From the NCBI GenBank assembly GCA_025774615.1, contig JALGVQ010000070.1, positions 1 to 13,377 on the forward strand: a stretch of 13,377 nt of DNA, written 5' to 3'. This document shows, piece by piece, positions 1 through 12,162 of the stretch; position 1 is the first letter of the stretch, and every line of letters starts with the position of its first letter. This DNA comes from a bacterium (GTDB taxonomy: Bacteria > Blakebacterota > Blakebacteria > Blakebacterales > Blakebacteraceae). The notes under the pieces were generated by a model, which saw only the letters and a program-made list of their open reading frames with translations, had not been told where the DNA came from and did not search any database. The position numbers and the translations under genes were made by a program.

Positions 1-3000
1 CGATCGGATGTCCTGCGGTCCGCTCCTGTTCGAGCATCTCCTTGATCCGCACGTATTCCCGACCGACCACCTTGCCCCGTTCGATCCGGCGCTTCGAGAA
101 GCGCAACCGGAGCTCACCGAAGATGGTGTAGACGATCGGGATGATGAGCAGGGTCAGGAAGGTCGCGGCCGTCAGGCCACCGATCACCGAACGGGCCATC
201 GGTGCCCACAGTTCCGCTCCGGTCCCCATCTCCAGCGCCAGCGGCAACATGGCCAGGATGGTGGTCAGCGCAGTCATGAGGATCGGTCGCATCCGCCGCC
301 GGGCGGCGATCCGCACCGCTTCGAACATCTCGATGCCCCGCTCACGCAGCTGCTCGATGTAGTCGATCATCACGATTGCGTTGTTCACCACGATCCCGAC
401 CAGGATGATGATCCCGATCATCGCCACCACACTGAGAGCCGTTCCGGTGAGGAAAAGGGACCAGGTGACGCCGATGAAGGAGAGCGGGATAGTGAGGATG
501 ATGATGAATGGGTTGAGCAGGCTCTCGAACTGGCTCGCCATGACCATGTAGACGAGCAGGGAACCGGCTATCAGAGCGACGAAGAGCCAGATGAATGATT
601 CCATCATGTCATCGGCCGCTCCACCGACTGCCCATTGGAAACCCTCCGGCATCTCGTACTGCTCAAGCAGATCCTGGACGTTCCGGGTCACCGCTCCCAG
701 CTTTGCCCCAAGGACATCGATGTTCACGTAAACCACCCTCTGCTGGTTCTTGCGGCTGATCGTCACCGGTGCCCGCGAAGGCTCCAGGGTGATGAGATCG
801 GCCATCGGGATCTGGCTTCCCATCGGAGTGGCGACCAGCAGGTCCTGGATCGCGGAAGCGCTGTTACGGTACTGTTCATCTGCCTGGACCAGCACCTCGT
901 GTTCGCGGCTGCCCTCGGTGTACCAGGTCGCGATCGTTCCACGCATGTAGGTGCTCAGAGTGCTTGTTACCGCGCTCCCCGAGAGACCCATGGCCGAGAT
1001 CTGTTCGCGGTTCAGTTTCACCTCCAGTTCAGGGCGCCCTTTCTCGTACGAGCTGCTCACGTGCACGATCCACTTCAGTTCCCTGATCTGGTCGATCAGG
1101 TCGAGGGCGATCTGCTGTCCCGTTTCCAGATCGTGCCCGAAGATCTCGACGATGATGTCTCCCTCGGTCATCATGTTCATCCCGCCGCCCAGCTGGGCGG
1201 TCATCACCACTCCCGGCTCCTGTTCGAGGAGCGGCATCAGGGCATCCCTGATCTCCACCGTATCGCGTTCCCGCTCCCCGATATTGACTAGGTTGATCTC
1301 GATGGAACCCTGGTTGCTGGCGGTGGATGAGAACGATGCGAAACCCTCACCCGGTCCATAGGAGCTGGTCACGGCGTACGCCTCGGGAATCGTCCGCATA
1401 GCGATCTGCTCGAGGCGTGACATGGTCGCCTCCATCTCTTTGATAGAGATGCCAGGCTCCCGCTCCACATTGATGATGATCTGCTCTTCCTGTGACTCGG
1501 GGAGCCACTCCTGGTCGATCACGGCCATCAGGGACATCGAACCGAAGAAGAGGATTATCGCGGCCCCGATCGTGAGCTTCCGATGTTCGAGGGCGCGGTC
1601 GAGATTGCGACCGTAGTTGCCTTCCGCCTTCTCAAGGAACCGGCCGATGAATCCGCTGAGCCGCTGGAAGAGAGGCTTGAAGGGTTCGATCAGCCGCCGT
1701 ATAAGGCCTCGATATTCAGATTTTCCCGCGGAAGCAGGTCTCAGCAACCGGCTCCCCATCAGGGGTACAAGGGTGGTGGCCACAAAGAGGCTGGCCGCGA
1801 GGCTCACACAGATGGTGATGGCCATGTCCTTGAACATCACCCCCGCGATCCCCGGTACGAAGAGAATCGGCACGAACACGCTGACCGTGGTGAGGGTCGA
1901 GGCCGTGATGGCGGTCAGTATCTCGGAGGGACCCTTGACCGCTGCCTCCATCGGAGTATCGCCGTCCTCAATGAAACGGACAGTGTTCTCCAGCGCCACG
2001 ATAGCGTTATCTACGAGCATCCCGAGCGCCAGCGCCAGTCCCGCCAGACTGATGATATTGAGATTCAGGTCGAGCAGGTACATCACGAAGAAAGCGAAGA
2101 GCATGCTCAGCGGCATGCTCATGGCCACGATCACACTGGCCCGGAAATTCCGCAGGAAGAAGAGCAGAACGATCCCGGCCATGATGAACCCGAGGACGGC
2201 GGTGTTGGCCAGGTTGCCGAGAGAGCGCTGGATGAATCCCGACTGTTCAAAGATGGTGGAGAGTTCCACTCCAGGGGGCAGGAGGGTATTGATATTCGGA
2301 ATCTCCTTCAGGACCTCCTGTCCCACCTTCACGGTATTGGCGTCTGACTGCTTCATCACCACCATCATCACACCCGGGGCGCCATTGATGTGGGTACCGG
2401 CGAGTTCCTCGGCAAAGGTATCCACCACGTTGGCGACATCCTGGACCCGGACGGGAGAGGTTCCCACGTACCCGACGATCGTCCGTGCTATCTGATTCAC
2501 ATCGGTGTACTTGCCCTGGGTGTGTACCGCGTAAGTGATCTGTCCCTGGTCGAAGGTGCCGGCCGGCATCTGCATGTTCTCCATGCGGATGGCGTTGATC
2601 ACCTGTGCCGCAGCGATGCGCCGGGCACGCATCCGGGTGGGATCGAGCCGGACCTGGATCTGCCGGTCCTGACCTCCAGTCACGGTGGCCAATGCCACTC
2701 CCGGAACTCGCTCCAGCATCGGTTCGATCCGCTCTTTTGCGATGGCTCTCAGTTCGTGGGTGGGCAGGTCACCGGATACACCCAGAAAGGAGATCGGCAT
2801 CATGCTGGGATCGAAGGCCACAACGAGTGGAGATCTCATCTCCTGGGGGAAGAAATCCTCAAACATCTTGAGGTTCTCCCGGATGTCCTCCTTGGCGATC
2901 TCCATGTTGGTGCCCCAGGCGAATTCCAGCAGAAGGAAAGCCACCCCCTGCCGGGAATCGCTGGTGATGTTCTTGATACCACTGACGGAAGAGACCGCTT

Positions 3001-4405: not shown

Positions 4406-5872
4406 TCAGAAGCTGATCGGCTGGCCGACGGCTTTTTCGATCCGGGCCAGGGCGATGAGGTAGTCGTAGAGAGACTGGTAATGGTTCTGTCGTGCCATCG
4501 TCAGCGCGAGCTGACTGTCCATCAGTTCCACACTGGTCATCATTTCGTTCTCGTAGGATATCTGTGCGATCTGAAGCGCCCGCTCAGCGATGGCGACATT
4601 GTCGAGCTGTGCCAGATAGGTCTGTTCGGCTGCCTGCAGATCATTCAGCGCCTGCTCGATCTCGGCATCTATCACCCGTTCGAACTGATCGACCATGATC
4701 CGGGCCTGTTCCCGTCCTGCGCTCGCCATCTGTTTTCTGCTTTTTGAGGCGAATCCGTCGAAGATGGGAACGGCGACCACGATGTTGGTCATGTAGCTGT
4801 CGTTGTAGCGCTCACTGAGCAGGGCATCGTCAGCGCGGAATGACCATGAGCCGCTCAACATCACCGCCGGGAGGCGGCTTGCCCGGGCCATGCTCACACC
4901 GAGTTCAGCCCGCTGGACCCCGAGTCTGGCGCTCTGTAGATCGGAACGATTCGCGACCGCGTGCTGCTTCAGCTCTTCGAGCGAGAGATCGACAGGCCGG
5001 TAGCGCAACTCACCTTTGATCTGGAATTCTTCCTCCGGCGGCATACCGAGCAGGAGATTGAGGCCGATCCGTACCTGCCGGATCATCGATTCGGCCCGCG
5101 TTACCCCCGGCCGGAGATTGGCGACCTGTACCTGGGCACGGAGGACGTCGAACTCACTCGCGGCACCCTGGGCCAGGCGTTCGGCCGCCATCGACTCCTG
5201 CCGCTCGGCCTGTGCGAGGGCATCAAGGGCGACCTGCAGGCCCTTCTCGGCCAGGAGCACACCGTAGAAGGTCTGAGTCACCTGCAGGACCACGTCGCGA
5301 TGGCTGCTCTCAAGGGTGTTCCGCGTGATATCGAGTGCGGTACGGGCATCGGCATAGCCGTTACGCGTCAGGCCCCACATGGCGATCGGCATCCCGATGT
5401 TCACCGATCCCTGGTAGTCCTGTGTGAAATCCATCTTCAGTATGGGGGGGCCCCCCAGTGAGGCGAACGGATTGGGTATCTCCTGCACTTTCTCGGCGAA
5501 GTTCCACAGACCGCTGAAGCTGGCAGTCGGAAGCATCGCCCCCCGCGCGCCCAGTACGGCTCCCTCCGCCGAGTTGATCTGCTGCCTCGCAGCCAACAGC
5601 GTGGGATTCTGGTCCGTGGCGAGAACGATCGCTGACTCGAGGGTGAGCGTACGTGACGGACCGCTCCTGGTTCCCTGTGCCAGCAGGGGAGAGGTCCACA
5701 GCAGGAGTACCGGTATCAGGTACACATAGGCCATCAGGAATGGACGTCTCGTGCTTTGATTCGACATGTCGGGTCTCACTCTGTTCTGCGTGTGAATGAT
5801 CAAGCGATCTGTCTGATGGTGGATCATGCGATCCATCTGACGATTGACCAGGTGGTCTCTCTGACGATTCAT
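4406..5872 (-). CDS. TolC-family outer-membrane efflux protein
   Basis: Outer-membrane channel of the tripartite pump. 488 residues from the chosen start. Two OEP-type halves can be seen, rich in the alternating helical pattern of TolC (for example LTLESAIVLATDQNPTLLAA near the N-terminus). The start at 5872 overlaps the tetR stop as ATGA and has a perfect AGGAGGT 6 bases upstream. However, it adds about 35 polar residues with an 8-residue repeating pattern (NRQRDHLV, NRQMDRMI, HHQTDRLI) before the signal sequence. An alternative ATG at 5767 (residue 36) would give a conventional N-terminus: MSNQSTRRPF, a hydrophobic segment, then a cut near LLAQ. That start has only a weak ribosome site. I keep 5872 on the strength of the ribosome site, but the extension may not persist in the mature protein because it precedes the signal peptide. 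Confidence 0.93.
   Translation of the reverse strand: MNRQRDHLVNRQMDRMIHHQTDRLIIHTQNRVRPDMSNQSTRRPFLMAYVYLIPVLLLWTSPLLAQGTRSGPSRTLTLESAIVLATDQNPTLLAARQQINSAEGAVLGARGAMLPTASFSGLWNFAEKVQEIPNPFASLGGPPILKMDFTQDYQGSVNIGMPIAMWGLTRNGYADARTALDITRNTLESSHRDVVLQVTQTFYGVLLAEKGLQVALDALAQAERQESMAAERLAQGAASEFDVLRAQVQVANLRPGVTRAESMIRQVRIGLNLLLGMPPEEEFQIKGELRYRPVDLSLEELKQHAVANRSDLQSARLGVQRAELGVSMARASRLPAVMLSGSWSFRADDALLSERYNDSYMTNIVVAVPIFDGFASKSRKQMASAGREQARIMVDQFERVIDAEIEQALNDLQAAEQTYLAQLDNVAIAERALQIAQISYENEMMTSVELMDSQLALTMARQNHYQSLYDYLIALARIEKAVGQPISF
5798..5869. repeat. Three imperfect 24-bp tandem units with palindromic cores
   Basis: Units start at 5798, 5822 and 5846 on the plus strand. Units 1/2 and units 2/3 each agree at 18 of 24 positions. 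Each begins with a 12-base near-palindrome: GATCAAGCGATC, GATCATGCGATC and GACCAGGTGGTC (consensus GAYCANGYGRTC). The second extends to TGGATC-N4-GATCCA. They lie inside the first codons of the tolC-type frame (antisense to the strand quoted) and encode the 8-residue repeats of the N-terminal extension. The 24-bp period keeps frame. They may be a coding expansion, extra regulator sites, or RNA structure near the ribosome site. Confidence 0.6.
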
Positions 5873-6492
5873 CGGGTTACCTCCTGAGCGCCAAGAAGCT
5901 CAAGGATGCGGCTGGTCGTCTCTTCGGTATTTTCAGTAAGCGGATGAGTGCTTTCGGTCATCACGGAGTAGCGGAATTCCGCGGTGATGATGTCCAGAAC
6001 TAGGAAGGCTGACTTGTGCGGGTCCATAGTCCTGAAAACCCCTTCTTCCTGGCCCTCGGCGATGAATTCGGAGATGAAGTCGATCAACTGCATGAAATTC
6101 TGCCTGAGAGGACCGCCGAACGTATCCTTCATCGATACGGCAGTCCGATCCCCTTCCTGCATGAGGATCTTGTGGATGTCCCGGCCGGTCTCGAAGAACT
6201 CGAGGAAAAGCTGGACGAACATGCCGAGCCGTTCCACCCGGGAGGTGTCGGGTGTTGAAAGCGTCTCCTGGCCGATTTCTCGTGCCCTGCCGCTTCCCCA
6301 TTCGATCAGGGTCCGGAACAGTTCCTGTTTGTTGGAGAAGTAGTTATAGACGGTCCCTTTCGAGACTTCCGCTGCTTCGGCGATCATGTCCATCGTGGTT
6401 GCTTCGAATCCGTGCTGGGCAAACAGAGACACCGCCCGTTCCAGGATGAAGCGCCGATGGAATTCCCGCTCTCGTTCTTTGCGACTGGGCAT
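5869..6492 (-). CDS. TetR/AcrR-family transcriptional regulator
   Basis: DNA-binding repressor, very probably of its own efflux operon. 207 residues, typical length. The N-terminal helix-turn-helix is clear at about residues 12-58: ILERAVSLFAQHGFEATTMD, then IAEAAEVSKGTVYNYFSNKQEL, the standard TetR signature ending in the YxYFxxKxxL helix. The rest is a helical ligand-binding domain of unknown specificity (about 60-207). It is first in the operon, and its TGA overlaps the ATG of the tolC gene, so regulator and pump are made from one message. The ATG at 6492 has GTGAGG about 8-10 bases upstream. A perfect inverted repeat 34-49 bases upstream of the start is the likely operator. The inducer is probably a pump substrate, as in AcrR, but that is inference. 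Confidence 0.95.
   Translation of the reverse strand: MPSRKEREREFHRRFILERAVSLFAQHGFEATTMDMIAEAAEVSKGTVYNYFSNKQELFRTLIEWGSGRAREIGQETLSTPDTSRVERLGMFVQLFLEFFETGRDIHKILMQEGDRTAVSMKDTFGGPLRQNFMQLIDFISEFIAEGQEEGVFRTMDPHKSAFLVLDIITAEFRYSVMTESTHPLTENTEETTSRILELLGAQEVTR
5879..5885 (-). promoter_or_regulatory. Strong ribosome binding site that decides the tolC start
   Basis: AGGAGGT on the minus strand, 6 bases before the ATG at 5872 and inside the last tetR codons. It is the main reason for choosing the long tolC frame over the internal ATG at 5767, which has only a weak match upstream. Confidence 0.75.
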
Positions 6493-6667: not shown

Positions 6668-8020
6668 ATGAATACCGGAGATTTGCGCGCACGCGCCCTC
6701 GATATTTTCTCGGCGGTTCTCGACGCCGCTCATCCACATCAGCTGATGTCGGAAGCGCTGGACCTCCACGGCACCATTCTGGATATAAAGGGCCTGGGCG
6801 GCCGGCAGACCCGGCTCGATCTCAACGACTACGAACGGATCGTTGCCGTCGGAGCCGGAAAAGCAACCGCACCGATGGCGGGAGCGCTTGAGGACCTGCT
6901 CCAGGCCAGGCTCGAGAGCGGAGTAATATCGGTCAAGTATGGCCACACGGTTCCCCTTGATCGCATCGATGTGAGGGAATCAGGGCATCCGGTACCCGAT
7001 GAGAGCGGCATCTCGGCGACTCGGGAGATACTGACCACACTTTTCAGTCTCGGATCCGATGATCTCGCTTTCGTTATGCTCTCAGGCGGCGGGAGCGCGC
7101 TCCTTGATGCATACCCCGAACCGATCACCCTCGATAACGCGCAGGACACCTTCACCGTTCTTCTCAACTCAGGCGCTCCGATCCACGAGATCAATGTCGT
7201 TCGGAAGCATATATCGAGTGTGAAGGGCGGTCAGCTTGCCCGGCTGGCACTGCCGGCGACCGTGATCACCCTCGTCCTGAGTGATGTCATCGGTGATCCA
7301 CTCGATATCATCGCCTCCGGCCCTACGGTTCCCGATCCGAGCACGTTCGGAGACGCGCTTGCCATCCTCGACGCATACCATGTTCGTGAGCAGATCCCGC
7401 GGCCGGTCATGGAGCACCTGGAGAAGGGTGGAAGGGGAGAGATCCCGGAGACCCCCAAGGAGGGTGATGAAGGATGGCAATGCTGCTCCTCCTTCCTCAT
7501 AGGCAACAATCAGCTGGCCATGGATACCGCCGCCGAGCGAGCCGCGGACCTCGGATTGACTCCCATGATCCTGACGACGACGATGCAGGGAGAAGCATCA
7601 GTCGTGGGGGAGGAGATGGCACGGAATCTGAAACGGGCACTTGAGACAGGGGAACCTCGGTCGCCTCCGTGCTGCCTTATCGCCGGTGGAGAAACGACCT
7701 GCACCATCGGGAGTGATTGCGGCCTTGGAGGTCGCAGTCAGGAGCTCGCTCTGGCAGCCGCGCGGGAACTGCGTGACACCGGTAACGCGGTTCTGCTCGC
7801 TGCCGGCACCGATGGCACCGACGGCCCCACCGATGCAGCCGGCGGGATCGTGGATGGTGAGACGGTCGGCAGGGGAGTGGAGAAAGGACTCATTCTCGAC
7901 GAGTACCTGGAGGGACACAACGCCTACCCCTTCCTGCAATCGACCGGATGCCTTATCAAGACAGGACCGACGATGACCAACATCATGGACATCGTCCTCA
8001 TGCTCGCTGGAACGGAGTGA
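6668..8020 (+). CDS. Glycerate 2-kinase (GckA/TtuD type, DUF4147-MOFRL)
   Basis: Phosphorylates D-glycerate to 2-phosphoglycerate with ATP, feeding glycerate into lower glycolysis; cytosolic. 450 residues from the chosen start, normal for the class. Family blocks are in order: GAGKA at 62-66, SGHPVPDE, SGGGSALL at 139-146, the long central block with NVVRKHISSVKGGQLA and LSDVIGDPLDIIASGPTVPD, then GGETT at 340-344, GGRSQELAL, GTDGTDGPTDAAGG from 380, and the C-terminal STGCLIKTGPTMTNIMDI. I chose ATG 6668 because family members begin just before the helix RARALDIFSAVLDAA. An upstream in-frame ATG at 6563 would add 35 residues without family character. The stop shares one base with the next ATG. 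No neighbouring glyoxylate, serine or tartrate genes show which pathway supplies the glycerate. Confidence 0.95.
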   Translation: MNTGDLRARALDIFSAVLDAAHPHQLMSEALDLHGTILDIKGLGGRQTRLDLNDYERIVAVGAGKATAPMAGALEDLLQARLESGVISVKYGHTVPLDRIDVRESGHPVPDESGISATREILTTLFSLGSDDLAFVMLSGGGSALLDAYPEPITLDNAQDTFTVLLNSGAPIHEINVVRKHISSVKGGQLARLALPATVITLVLSDVIGDPLDIIASGPTVPDPSTFGDALAILDAYHVREQIPRPVMEHLEKGGRGEIPETPKEGDEGWQCCSSFLIGNNQLAMDTAAERAADLGLTPMILTTTMQGEASVVGEEMARNLKRALETGEPRSPPCCLIAGGETTCTIGSDCGLGGRSQELALAAARELRDTGNAVLLAAGTDGTDGPTDAAGGIVDGETVGRGVEKGLILDEYLEGHNAYPFLQSTGCLIKTGPTMTNIMDIVLMLAGTE

Positions 8021-8856
8021 TGCTGAAACTGCCCCCGTATGGATGGGCAGGTGCTCTGATCCTGGTGGTCGGGTTTTCAGCGAACATCTTCACCGAATCC
8101 CTTTTCTTTCACACCTTCTTCACGCCCTGGATGTGGACGGGGTATCTGCTCCTGGCCGATGCTCTGGTAGCCCGACTGACCGGCAGGTCGTGGTTGACCC
8201 CCGATCCGCGCCGCTTTTTCAGTCTCCTGTTCGTCAGCCTGATGTTATGGCTGCTCTTCGAGGGCTATAACCTCCACCTCAGGAACTGGCAGTATATCGG
8301 ACTGCCGGCCAGCCCCTTCGTCGAATCCCTCGGGTATCTCTGGTCGTTCGCAACCATCTGGCCGGCGCTCTTCATTACGGCTGACCTGCTTGAGGCATTC
8401 GGGCTGAAGGTCCGGGGCAATCCACTCCGGATCACTCCGGGGAGACTGCGGTCGTGGTTCATGTTCGGCCTTGTCGCAGCTATCGGTCCCCTGTTGCTGC
8501 CCGGTCACCTGGCAGCATATTTTTTCGCCATCGTGTGGGTGGCGTATGTTTTCCTGCTTGAACCTCTGATCTACCCGAGACCGGAAGTGCGGTCACTGCT
8601 GCGTGAAGCAGGGGAGGGAGAATGGACGCGCTGGGTGAGCCTCGGTCTGGCGGGGCTTGTCTGCGGATTCCTCTGGGAGTCGTGGAACGTGTTTTCCACC
8701 GCCCGGTGGGTATACACCTTCCCCATGTTCCAGAACTGGAAACTCTTCGAGATGCCGTTTCCGGGATTCATGGGCTTCATCCCGTTCGCCTGGGAGGCAT
8801 CTGCCATGTACTCCTTCTGGCTTCTGGTCAGGGGAGCGAGGAGACCCGCGAGGTGA
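8020..8856 (+). CDS. Uncharacterised polytopic membrane protein, probable internal duplication
   Basis: 278 residues with about seven or eight hydrophobic segments, near residues 8-28, 37-53, 66-82, 105-127, 145-161, 165-184, 205-224 and 248-271. I do not recognise a named family. Acidic residues sit in or at the ends of helices (E26, E81, E181, E220, E259). Two similar stretches suggest an internal repeat: FEGYN-x5-W-x-Y (80-92) and WESWN-x6-W-x-Y (219-232), each followed by a Pro/Glu-containing loop and another helix. The W-x-Y then P...E arrangement loosely recalls lycopene-cyclase-like repeats, but that is not enough to assign a function. Its ATG overlaps the kinase stop by one base (TGATG). 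Its TGA overlaps the GTG of the next gene by 4 bases, so it is translationally coupled on both sides. Confidence 0.85.
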   Translation: MLKLPPYGWAGALILVVGFSANIFTESLFFHTFFTPWMWTGYLLLADALVARLTGRSWLTPDPRRFFSLLFVSLMLWLLFEGYNLHLRNWQYIGLPASPFVESLGYLWSFATIWPALFITADLLEAFGLKVRGNPLRITPGRLRSWFMFGLVAAIGPLLLPGHLAAYFFAIVWVAYVFLLEPLIYPRPEVRSLLREAGEGEWTRWVSLGLAGLVCGFLWESWNVFSTARWVYTFPMFQNWKLFEMPFPGFMGFIPFAWEASAMYSFWLLVRGARRPAR

Positions 8857-9698
8857 ATGCCCGCTTATCGGCAGAAACCGATCCCCGTGTGGCCAGGTAC
8901 TATCGATCGGTGGCCGGGAAGATGCTGCCCTTCCTGGCGGGGAGACCAGCTGCAGTGCGCTGGGGGGAAGGCAGCGCCTTTTCACGCCGTGATGTGGATG
9001 GGCCGATCCATGTGAACAACGGGAGAGAACTCTCTGAATGGGTGGAGAAGGGCGCGACGGCCTTCTTTGCCTCCCCGATCGCCGATTCAGGCGAGGTCTG
9101 GTTCACACTTGCGCTCAATGGTGGAGACCTTCCCTTCGATGTCGTGAGGCTCACGGCTCTCAAACTGCTCCTGGTGCTTGAAGATTCTGAACTCGATGGA
9201 CTCCTCGTATACGACGGCAATGGTTCAGTCCGATTGCTCTGGACCTACGGAGTGATCGATCCCGATGAGATCCCCGGTGACCTCTGGCGATTCCAGAGCA
9301 ACATTGCGTCTGCTCTGCAGGAGAGGGTGGAGGCACGACTCATAGCGACACCGGAGCGCGACCGGATCGGCAGATGGCTCGGCTATGAAGGACCGGTGAC
9401 CCGGCTCGAAGGTGGCAGGATCACCGCCGGGAGGGGGCGGGGCGCAGGATCGGAGGGTGAGAAGGGGGATGTCGTGGTGATCTCGACCGGCGCGATGACA
9501 CCGAAAGGACTTCTGCGGATCCCGTATAGTCTCAATGAGGCCACCGGGTTCGCCTCTCGGCCGGTGACACGCTCGGATCTCTACCGGTTTGTCCGTGAGC
9601 GCCATGCCTCACCTGACCACGTCCGGCTCCTCCGTCGCAGGTTCGTTGTTCCCTTGAACCTGCCCCGGGCCGTGCTGAGAGGGCTGGGATTGGATTAA
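8853..9698 (+). CDS. Primase/LigD-polymerase-like (AEP) protein, catalytic motifs apparently lost
   Basis: 281 residues from a GTG that overlaps the upstream stop as GTGA, with AGGAG about 10 bases before it. The N-terminus (YYRSVAGKMLPFLAGRP, 16-32) matches the opening of LigD polymerase domains (tyrosine, LLPHL, dRP). The C-terminus (LLRIPYSLNEATGF, 220-233) resembles the RLIRLPgSLHgkTGL block of archaeal/eukaryotic primase small subunits and the PYS-R block of LigD. Between these, the expected DxD strand appears as WFTLALNGGD (83-92), SGGKGLH/SGRRGVH as YDGNGSVRLLW (120-130), and the third acidic strand as DVVVISTG (206-213). The metal-binding acids and the nucleotide-binding His/Ser are therefore missing in this alignment. 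No ligase, nuclease, Ku or zinc domain is present. Probably a non-catalytic relative; the alignment is by eye and needs a profile search. Confidence 0.65.
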   Translation: MNARLSAETDPRVARYYRSVAGKMLPFLAGRPAAVRWGEGSAFSRRDVDGPIHVNNGRELSEWVEKGATAFFASPIADSGEVWFTLALNGGDLPFDVVRLTALKLLLVLEDSELDGLLVYDGNGSVRLLWTYGVIDPDEIPGDLWRFQSNIASALQERVEARLIATPERDRIGRWLGYEGPVTRLEGGRITAGRGRGAGSEGEKGDVVVISTGAMTPKGLLRIPYSLNEATGFASRPVTRSDLYRFVRERHASPDHVRLLRRRFVVPLNLPRAVLRGLGLD

Positions 9699-9748: not shown

Positions 9749-10105
9749 ATGCCGAAATTCGTGACCCGCTGGCTGGTAACCGCTCTGGCGATCATCCTGG
9801 CGAGTTATTTCATGGCCGGTGTTCAGTTCGACTCAGCCTTCACCCTGGTCATGGCCGCCCTGGTACTGGGGCTCCTCAATGCGATCGTACGCCCGATACT
9901 GGTCGTGCTCACTCTCCCGATAACAATGGTCACTCTCGGGATCTTCCTCCTTGTCGTGAACGCGGTCACGCTGTGGCTCACCGCTGCCATCGTGCCGGGA
10001 TTCGAAATCGAGGGTACTTCCTATATCTGGGCCGCCCTGCTGATAACGATCCTGTCGTGGTTTATAAATCTTTTTATCAGGAAAGAAGAACGACGGGAGT
10101 ATTGA
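9749..10105 (+). CDS. Phage-holin-4_2/YvlD-family small membrane protein
   Basis: 118 residues and four hydrophobic segments (about 8-25, 30-48, 50-75 and 88-110), with the family's characteristic middle: LVLGLLNAIVRPILVVLTLP, then LGIFLLVVNAVTLWL and a C-terminal helix ending in a charged tail (RKEERREY). Despite the family name, chromosomal members are inner-membrane proteins of uncertain role; B. subtilis YvlD belongs to an envelope-stress operon. No phage genes are nearby. The ATG at 9749 has GGGAGA 6 bases upstream. It lies 50 bases after the primase-like gene and may share its message. It ends 3 bases from a convergent gene. Confidence 0.9.
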   Translation: MPKFVTRWLVTALAIILASYFMAGVQFDSAFTLVMAALVLGLLNAIVRPILVVLTLPITMVTLGIFLLVVNAVTLWLTAAIVPGFEIEGTSYIWAALLITILSWFINLFIRKEERREY

Positions 10106-10642: not shown

Positions 10643-10857
10643 GCCGGAATGCTACACGAGACCAGCGTGATGTGCCAGCATCCAATACTGGCTCGATCCA
10701 TAAACAACCGATATGCTCCGGAAGCCGGGATTCACCCTTCTTCCTTGTTCAGCGACCGCTGATTTGACTACTCTGTTTATTCTGGATGCTCCGTCTACCG
10801 GCGGCTCATATCGATACATCATCTTCAGTACCAGTACATGAAAAGGAGTACCATTCC
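10643..10857. other. Divergent intergenic region between ogt-like and thioredoxin genes
   Basis: 215 bp that must hold the promoters of both flanking genes. A TTGACT at about 10765 could be a -35 for the thioredoxin gene, but no good -10 follows at 16-18 bases. No strong operator, riboswitch fold or small gene is apparent. The region is somewhat richer in A and T than the genes around it, as expected of a promoter region. Confidence 0.4.
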
Positions 10858-12162
10858 ATGTTCGTGCCCATCCACGGTCGGTCCGCCAGGGCCCGCCTTC
10901 TTGTTCTTCCCGTTGTGTTCCTGGCCACGCTGATGGTGGTCTCATGCTCTTCTGACTCGTGGCGCTCAGGAGCGCTCGAACTGGTCGAGGGGTATGAACA
11001 GGCCGCCACCTACTACATGCCCTCCCGCAGTCCGGTACAGGCTGAGCCGGTCGAGACCCTCGTTGCCGAACCCGACTATCAGGGCACGCCGCTCTATGGT
11101 TCCTACACGATCGGTGATGGTGAGGATAACACGTTCAGTTACGTGCTCGATCATCAGGAGGGATCGGCTTCCCTCTTCTACCTCGATCTGAACAACAACG
11201 AGGATCTCACCGATGATGGTGACGGCGGCTGGGATGAGGTAAGTGACGCGACGAACAGGATCACCACCACCCTCATGGTACCGTTCGAGCGCGGTGGAGA
11301 ACTGCCCCTGCAGTTCTTCTTCTACTTTTTCAATACCCGCGACCCGATGGAACTGGGTGTTCTCTACACGCGGTCCAGCAGCCGTGTCGGGGAGATCAGG
11401 CTCTCAGGAACCACCTACCGGATCGCGATCGTCGAGAACGATAACAATGGTCTCTTCGACATGAAGGATGCTGAAGCCGATACCATCCTGCCCGGCATCA
11501 TCGGTTTCACGATCGATCTGAACGGTGACGGGGAAATGAGCTCCTCCAGCGGTTCACCCGAGAACTACCGGTTGGGTGAAGCATTCAACGTCGGCGGAAA
11601 GAGCTATGAGATAGCCGATGTCTCTCCAAGAGGAGAGTGGATCGAGTTCCAGCTTGCCGCAGAAGAGGTCGAACCGAGGCTGTACATCGAAGTGGGTCAC
11701 ACAGCACCGTCCTTTGCCCAGGAAGACTGCCGGGGCAACATGATCGAGCTTGAAGAGTACGTCAAAGACTACAAGGTCGTTCTTCTCGATTTCTGGGCAA
11801 CGTGGTGTGGACCGTGTATTGCGGAACTCCCGAACGTATTGGCCGTATTCGAAGAGTACAGGGACCAGGGATTCGGTGTTCTCGGTGTCAGTCTCGATCT
11901 CGCTCCCGATCCTGACAACCCGGCGGAGTTTCAGAAGACCGCCGAACAGGTCCGGGCCTTCATGGATGAGATGGAGATGGACTGGCCTACCACCTATGAT
12001 GGCCTCTACTGGAACAACGCAGTGTCCAGGTACTATCGTGTGAACTCGATTCCGGCGACCTTCCTGCTCGATTCCGAGGGGAAGATCCATTACGTGAATG
12101 TCCGGGGAGAGGCGTTGGGTGAGGCGGTCAAGGCGATGCTCGAAGAGGCTGGTGGTCAGTAG
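10858..12162 (+). CDS. TlpA-type thioredoxin lipoprotein with calcium-loop-like N-terminal domain
   Basis: Probable envelope thiol-disulfide oxidoreductase, 434 residues. The signal peptide ends in a lipobox-like VVSC with Cys30, so it is likely lipid-anchored outside the cytoplasm. Residues about 31-285 are an unassigned beta-rich region with three DxNxN/DxDxDG-like loops: DLNNNEDLTDDGDG at 110-123, NDNNG at 194-198 and DLNGDGEM at 220-227. These resemble calcium-binding loops. The C-terminal thioredoxin domain (about 288-434) has WATWCGPC with Cys317/Cys320 and the cis-Pro in NSIPATFLLD (Pro399), so the redox site is intact. It is far longer than the TlpA domain alone. The ATG at 10858 is set by AAGGAG 9 bases upstream and by the signal peptide; an in-frame ATG at 10786 would bury the signal 24 residues further in. 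Partner proteins are unknown. Confidence 0.92.
   Translation: MFVPIHGRSARARLLVLPVVFLATLMVVSCSSDSWRSGALELVEGYEQAATYYMPSRSPVQAEPVETLVAEPDYQGTPLYGSYTIGDGEDNTFSYVLDHQEGSASLFYLDLNNNEDLTDDGDGGWDEVSDATNRITTTLMVPFERGGELPLQFFFYFFNTRDPMELGVLYTRSSSRVGEIRLSGTTYRIAIVENDNNGLFDMKDAEADTILPGIIGFTIDLNGDGEMSSSSGSPENYRLGEAFNVGGKSYEIADVSPRGEWIEFQLAAEEVEPRLYIEVGHTAPSFAQEDCRGNMIELEEYVKDYKVVLLDFWATWCGPCIAELPNVLAVFEEYRDQGFGVLGVSLDLAPDPDNPAEFQKTAEQVRAFMDEMEMDWPTTYDGLYWNNAVSRYYRVNSIPATFLLDSEGKIHYVNVRGEALGEAVKAMLEEAGGQ

Follow-up and report, generated by a model that had tools for sequence, protein, structure and literature searches.

The window analysed here, a stretch of 13,377 nucleotides, contains an open reading frame on its forward strand that the sequence-only reading had placed at 8853-9698, and we found exactly these coordinates, with a GTG start, a TAA stop and a product of 281 amino acids. 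The strings which that reading had quoted in support of a primase- or LigD-polymerase-like protein were likewise located, with YYRSVAGKMLPFLAGRP at residues 16-32, WFTLALNGGD at 83-92, DGNGSVR at 121-127 and LLRIPYSLNEATGF at 220-233. The gene, which we refer to as LigD-Pol-like after the polymerase domain of LigD, lies among the following neighbours.

7984-8856, forward strand: membrane protein whose stop overlaps the start of the LigD-Pol-like gene; its family is widespread and is covered by no Pfam or NCBIfam model
8853-9698, forward strand: LigD-Pol/AEP-like gene, with homologues and signs of purifying selection
9749-10105, forward strand: downstream gene for a protein with four transmembrane segments (PF04020), in an order preserved in L007 and L003
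10109-10642, reverse strand: convergent gene resembling O6-methylguanine-DNA methyltransferase, also retained nearby in L007

Genes farther away in the window encode glycerate 2-kinase-like, efflux, TetR, thioredoxin-like lipoprotein and DUF948/YtxH-like proteins.

The source phylum is represented in our collection by four incomplete genomes (G000-G003, 63-85% complete). We found a full-length homologue with about 62-63% identity in G003, on what seems to be the contig that we also hold as L007 (Candidatus Zixiibacteriota MAG CSMAG_1180; the sequence matches), and a C-terminal fragment at a contig edge in G002 (L003), while the G001 contig stops within the upstream membrane gene, so that the presence of the LigD-Pol-like gene there is not judgeable. 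L007 was the sole match when genome contigs were scanned; the protein had no match in 386 sampled genomes outside the source phylum and none in phages, plasmids or viral contigs, and tracing the membrane gene through other genomes in search of active relatives yielded none. The gene is conserved but so far confined to one small candidate lineage (three genomes, uncultured). Matches obtained under relaxed settings (E up to 0.3) gave only local hhalign alignments of at most 99 columns, none of them LigD-like, and were rejected. A weak profile match, L065 (G142:C803; DGAIIFNGDGSKILWAN), locally resembles residues 104-169 and was taken as chance; by the look of its sequence it appears to be of the diadenylate-cyclase type.

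The loss of every catalytic residue (see below) and the lack of a database family could suggest a spurious frame or a decaying LigD-Pol pseudogene. We give this next to no credence, given a full-length homologue at the same conserved genomic position, a frame that is open in both the window genome and L007, and an NG86 comparison between the two in which dN (0.32) is far below dS (about 2.6, saturated), comparable to the neighbouring genes. Thus, the frame is a real gene that is under purifying selection and shows no decay.

Family libraries searched with HMMER contained no family covering the core of the protein. Pfam LigD_Prim-Pol (PF21686) gave a weak, sub-threshold match at the N-terminus of both homologues, with E values of 0.0037 and 0.0012 and bit scores of 17.3 and 18.9 (curated cut-off, 27.4), and TIGR02778 reached 13.4 bits against a cut-off of 214.7. 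For profile comparisons we used an alignment of 13 LigD polymerase domains (A3), validated as LigD-Pol by matches to 2iru, 2fao, 5dmu, 5op0 and 6sa0, and a second set of 36 LigD domains. When the two-homologue alignment was compared with A3, hhalign reported a probability of 92% and a score of 51.1 over 199 columns, whereas the best of 200 column shuffles scored 29.0 and the reversed profile 18.4. The score against the 36 domains was 51.4 (best of 150 shuffles, 25.4), so that overall the match has a probability of 92-93% and spans 199-200 columns, almost end to end. As single sequences, L007 scored 53.5 and the window protein 39.7 against LigD-Pol; nine other proteins from the window scored 12.8-24.5. 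As judged from these profiles, the resemblance to LigD-Pol exceeds chance. Of the AEP-like character that the sequence-only reading had proposed, a distant kinship with LigD-Pol is thereby upheld (a score of 51 against best shuffles of 25-29).

Beyond the nearly full-length profile match, the window protein shares with LigD-Pol (PF21686/TIGR02778; M. tuberculosis, PDB 2iru) the order of its blocks, including an N-terminal YY..VA..LP...GRP block and a PYS block near the C-terminus. It differs in that six active-site residues are replaced, the curated cut-offs are not reached, the N-terminus is short, a basic C-terminal tail has been added and no Ku or LigD partner was found. The stretches of the protein discussed below, all on the forward strand, are as follows.

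8886-8975: residues 12-41, N-terminal LigD-Pol-like block (RVARYYRSVAGKMLPFLAGRPAAVRW...), seen by Pfam LigD_Prim-Pol (stretch 13-40) and hhalign; strongest part of the match
9096-9128: residues 82-92, strand of motif I (DxD), VWFTLALNGGD; D137 is replaced by A87 and D139 by N89 (L007 has T and V)
9129-9185: residues 93-111, helix after motif I, 19/19 identical between the homologues (shuffle p of about 0.011 for the longest run)
9207-9236: residues 119-128, region of motif II; S172 is replaced by D121 (L007 also has D) and H178 by R127 (L007 has G)
9369-9404: residues 173-184, invariant block GRWLGYEGPVTR, lying between motifs II and III where the alignment is poor; LigD has no evident equivalent
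9468-9488: residues 206-212, strand of motif III; D227 is replaced by S211 (L007 has T)
9510-9551: residues 220-233, block opposite LigD APYSxR; R244 is replaced by N228 (L007 has H, and the L003 fragment from G002 has N)
9561-9695: residues 237-281, C-terminal tail of basic composition (residues 236-281 contain 11 K/R and 4 D/E)

About half of the LigD-Pol profile signal falls within the first 41 residues. When these were removed, the score dropped to 27.5-28.5, with best shuffles of 26.8 (of 100) and 26.0 (of 150); 158-159 columns still aligned in unchanged register and order, marginally above all shuffles. Since the core is weak without these residues, its mapping leans on the N-terminal anchor and on co-linearity.

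AlphaFold models from the two-sequence input had a pLDDT of 34 with the window protein first and 36 with L007 first, and both were unusable. For the first model, Foldseek placed the LigD-Pol structure 2r9l at rank 2 (E 0.06) amid unrelated folds, and VIA-align returned 5dmu (Z 5.5, rmsd 2.7, 86 aligned) and 2r9l (Z 5.3, rmsd 3.0, 88 aligned) alongside many unrelated folds. For the second, LigD-Pol was absent among the best 50 Foldseek rows, and the structural matches were eIF4E-like and other unrelated folds. Neither model therefore gave a reliable match to the AEP fold with Foldseek or VIA-align. With the models unusable, we infer the AEP fold of a LigD-Pol-like protein from the sequence profiles alone. 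The LigD sequence of a viral contig (L092) was kept out of the fold alignment, both because its C-terminal part came out misaligned in MAFFT and because its inclusion would have made the test circular.

The uneven distribution of the profile signal raises the question of whether the likeness to LigD, arising through chance or fusion, is confined to roughly the first 40 residues, with the remainder adopting a different, undescribed fold. That roughly half of the score is N-terminal, that the models are unusable and that no library family matches the core would all fit this explanation. We nevertheless regard it as rather improbable, since the core alone retains its register and order just above all shuffles, and since the length of the protein, the order of helices and strands (which in the first AlphaFold model, pLDDT 34, agrees with LigD-Pol) and the placement of the PYSL..TG block all fit LigD-Pol.

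Motifs I-III of AEP enzymes have been reviewed (PMC4538821). In LigD-Pol of M. tuberculosis, the active site comprises Asp137 and Asp139 of motif I and Asp227 of motif III, with the Ser and His of motif II and Arg244 as triphosphate ligands (PMC8656161). We placed the M. tuberculosis numbers on the columns of A3 through a near-constant offset (31-32), and the motif mapping was identical under four hhalign settings. Of the 36 LigD domains, 35-36 keep the residue at each of the Asp, His and Arg positions; at the Ser position, either S or T occurs. The two strings suspected of marking the former motifs, WFTLALNGGD and DGNGSVR, do fall in the catalytic columns. As suspected, both full-length homologues have lost the DxD pair together with the third Asp and the His, and neither has the acidic triad. 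Moreover, five of the six catalytic-equivalent positions differ between the homologues, against an overall identity of about 63%, and within residues 85-92, the old DxD stretch, only one of eight is identical; with two full-length homologues known, how constant these losses are is judged from two sequences.

With both metal and triphosphate ligands lost, polymerase activity and nucleotide binding at the old site are disfavoured, and we consider either unlikely as far as the alignment can tell. This also argues against the nucleotide binder that the sequence-only reading had offered as one option, given that the Ser, His and Arg that contact the triphosphate have been replaced as well. The 5'-phosphate pocket of LigD-Pol is formed by Asn13, Lys16 and Lys26 (PMC3898472). 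In this region the window protein is short, with only about 10 residues ahead of the aligned block. D10 lies opposite the Lys that is invariant in LigD column 2, at a low-confidence end of the alignment.

A further option put forward by the sequence-only reading was a new AEP subfamily whose active site has moved. An active enzyme of this kind would use other acidic residues, for example D121, E81 and D206, all three of which are present in both homologues. Close to the motif strands, a number of acidic residues do not vary between the homologues, and D121 lies in the motif II loop. Two sequences that are about 63% identical keep many acidic residues anyway, the parent site has lost every metal and triphosphate ligand and the old active strand is poorly conserved, and we find a moved site very unlikely.

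We lean towards the interpretation that the window protein descends from a LigD-type polymerase domain of the AEP superfamily and has become non-catalytic and specific to its lineage, because the profile similarity is nearly full-length, six residues are replaced and the gene is under purifying selection. The old site would then hold neither catalytic metals nor NTP, there would be no polymerisation, and the protein would most likely function through its surfaces, as a putative binding or scaffold subunit. The invariant helix at residues 93-111 and the GRWLGYEGPVTR block are candidate sites for a protein partner, and the Arg-rich C-terminal tail is a candidate contact for nucleic acid or another acidic partner (the calculated pI is 9.3 and 10.0). 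Such a binding or scaffold role is our guess from conservation and charge. As to the notion of a pseudo-polymerase, i.e. an AEP/LigD-Pol domain that lost all of its chemistry and became established in a regulatory or structural role in a bacterial lineage without detected NHEJ, we see the chances as evenly balanced.

AEP polymerases are known as priming and end-joining enzymes. Neither Ku nor a catalytic LigD-Pol was found in the four genomes of the phylum, whose incompleteness means that absence is not proof; with both missing from these assemblies, a role of the LigD-Pol-like protein in NHEJ is unlikely. The block at residues 220-233 is reminiscent of a block of PriS, as the sequence-only reading had pointed out, and the window protein differs from PriS/Prim1 of the AEP superfamily in that motifs I-III are absent. 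AEP enzymes with non-catalytic partners do have a precedent in PriX, a non-catalytic primase subunit which is a diverged homologue of the C-terminal domain of PriL, not of the catalytic AEP domain (PMC12019639). The window protein differs from it in its kinship, which is with LigD-Pol and not PriL, and in that no catalytic LigD-type partner was found here.

A limited keyword search of the open-access literature found no description of a LigD-Pol homologue that stands alone and is catalytically dead. If our interpretation is correct, a homologue maintained without its catalytic residues would mean that the AEP scaffold can be retained for another purpose, and would offer a defined test case for the roles of AEP non-catalytic surfaces. 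For now, its reach is limited to three genomes of one uncultured lineage.

Another explanation would make the LigD-Pol-like protein a cytoplasmic partner of the upstream membrane protein that functions only jointly with it. Translational coupling of the two genes, as claimed from the sequence, is borne out in the window, where the GTG start overlaps the TGA of the membrane frame (GTGA at 8853-8856), and is not conserved: in L007 the genes are adjacent without overlap, separated by a gap of 123 nt. Outside the source phylum, the membrane family (L027-L042; no Pfam or NCBIfam model for the four members checked) has strong matches in 16 sampled genomes, none of which gave a match to the LigD-Pol-like protein, and in the contexts that were read its neighbours are unrelated. 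The gene follows the membrane protein in L007 and in none of the contexts read outside the phylum. The overlap and the adjacency in L007 would fit a partnership, and in G001 the membrane gene lies at a contig end, so a missing partner there is not judgeable. However, the gap in the relative and the occurrence of the family beside unrelated genes in genomes without a match to the LigD-Pol-like protein speak against a functional link; furthermore, the downstream gene order is kept too, so that plain synteny suffices to explain the adjacency. We therefore judge an obligate partnership to be unlikely.

Two differences between the loci were noted in passing. In L007, a membrane enzyme resembling phospholipid methyltransferase/ICMT (2110-2655, forward strand) precedes the membrane gene, where the window has the glycerate kinase-like gene. 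In the window, the thioredoxin-like lipoprotein (AhpC/TSA, TlpA-type; 10786-12162, forward strand) lies between the methyltransferase and the DUF948 gene, and at its place L007 has only a short frame (5609-5944, forward strand) with a similar string, IPATLLLDSEG, perhaps a remnant.
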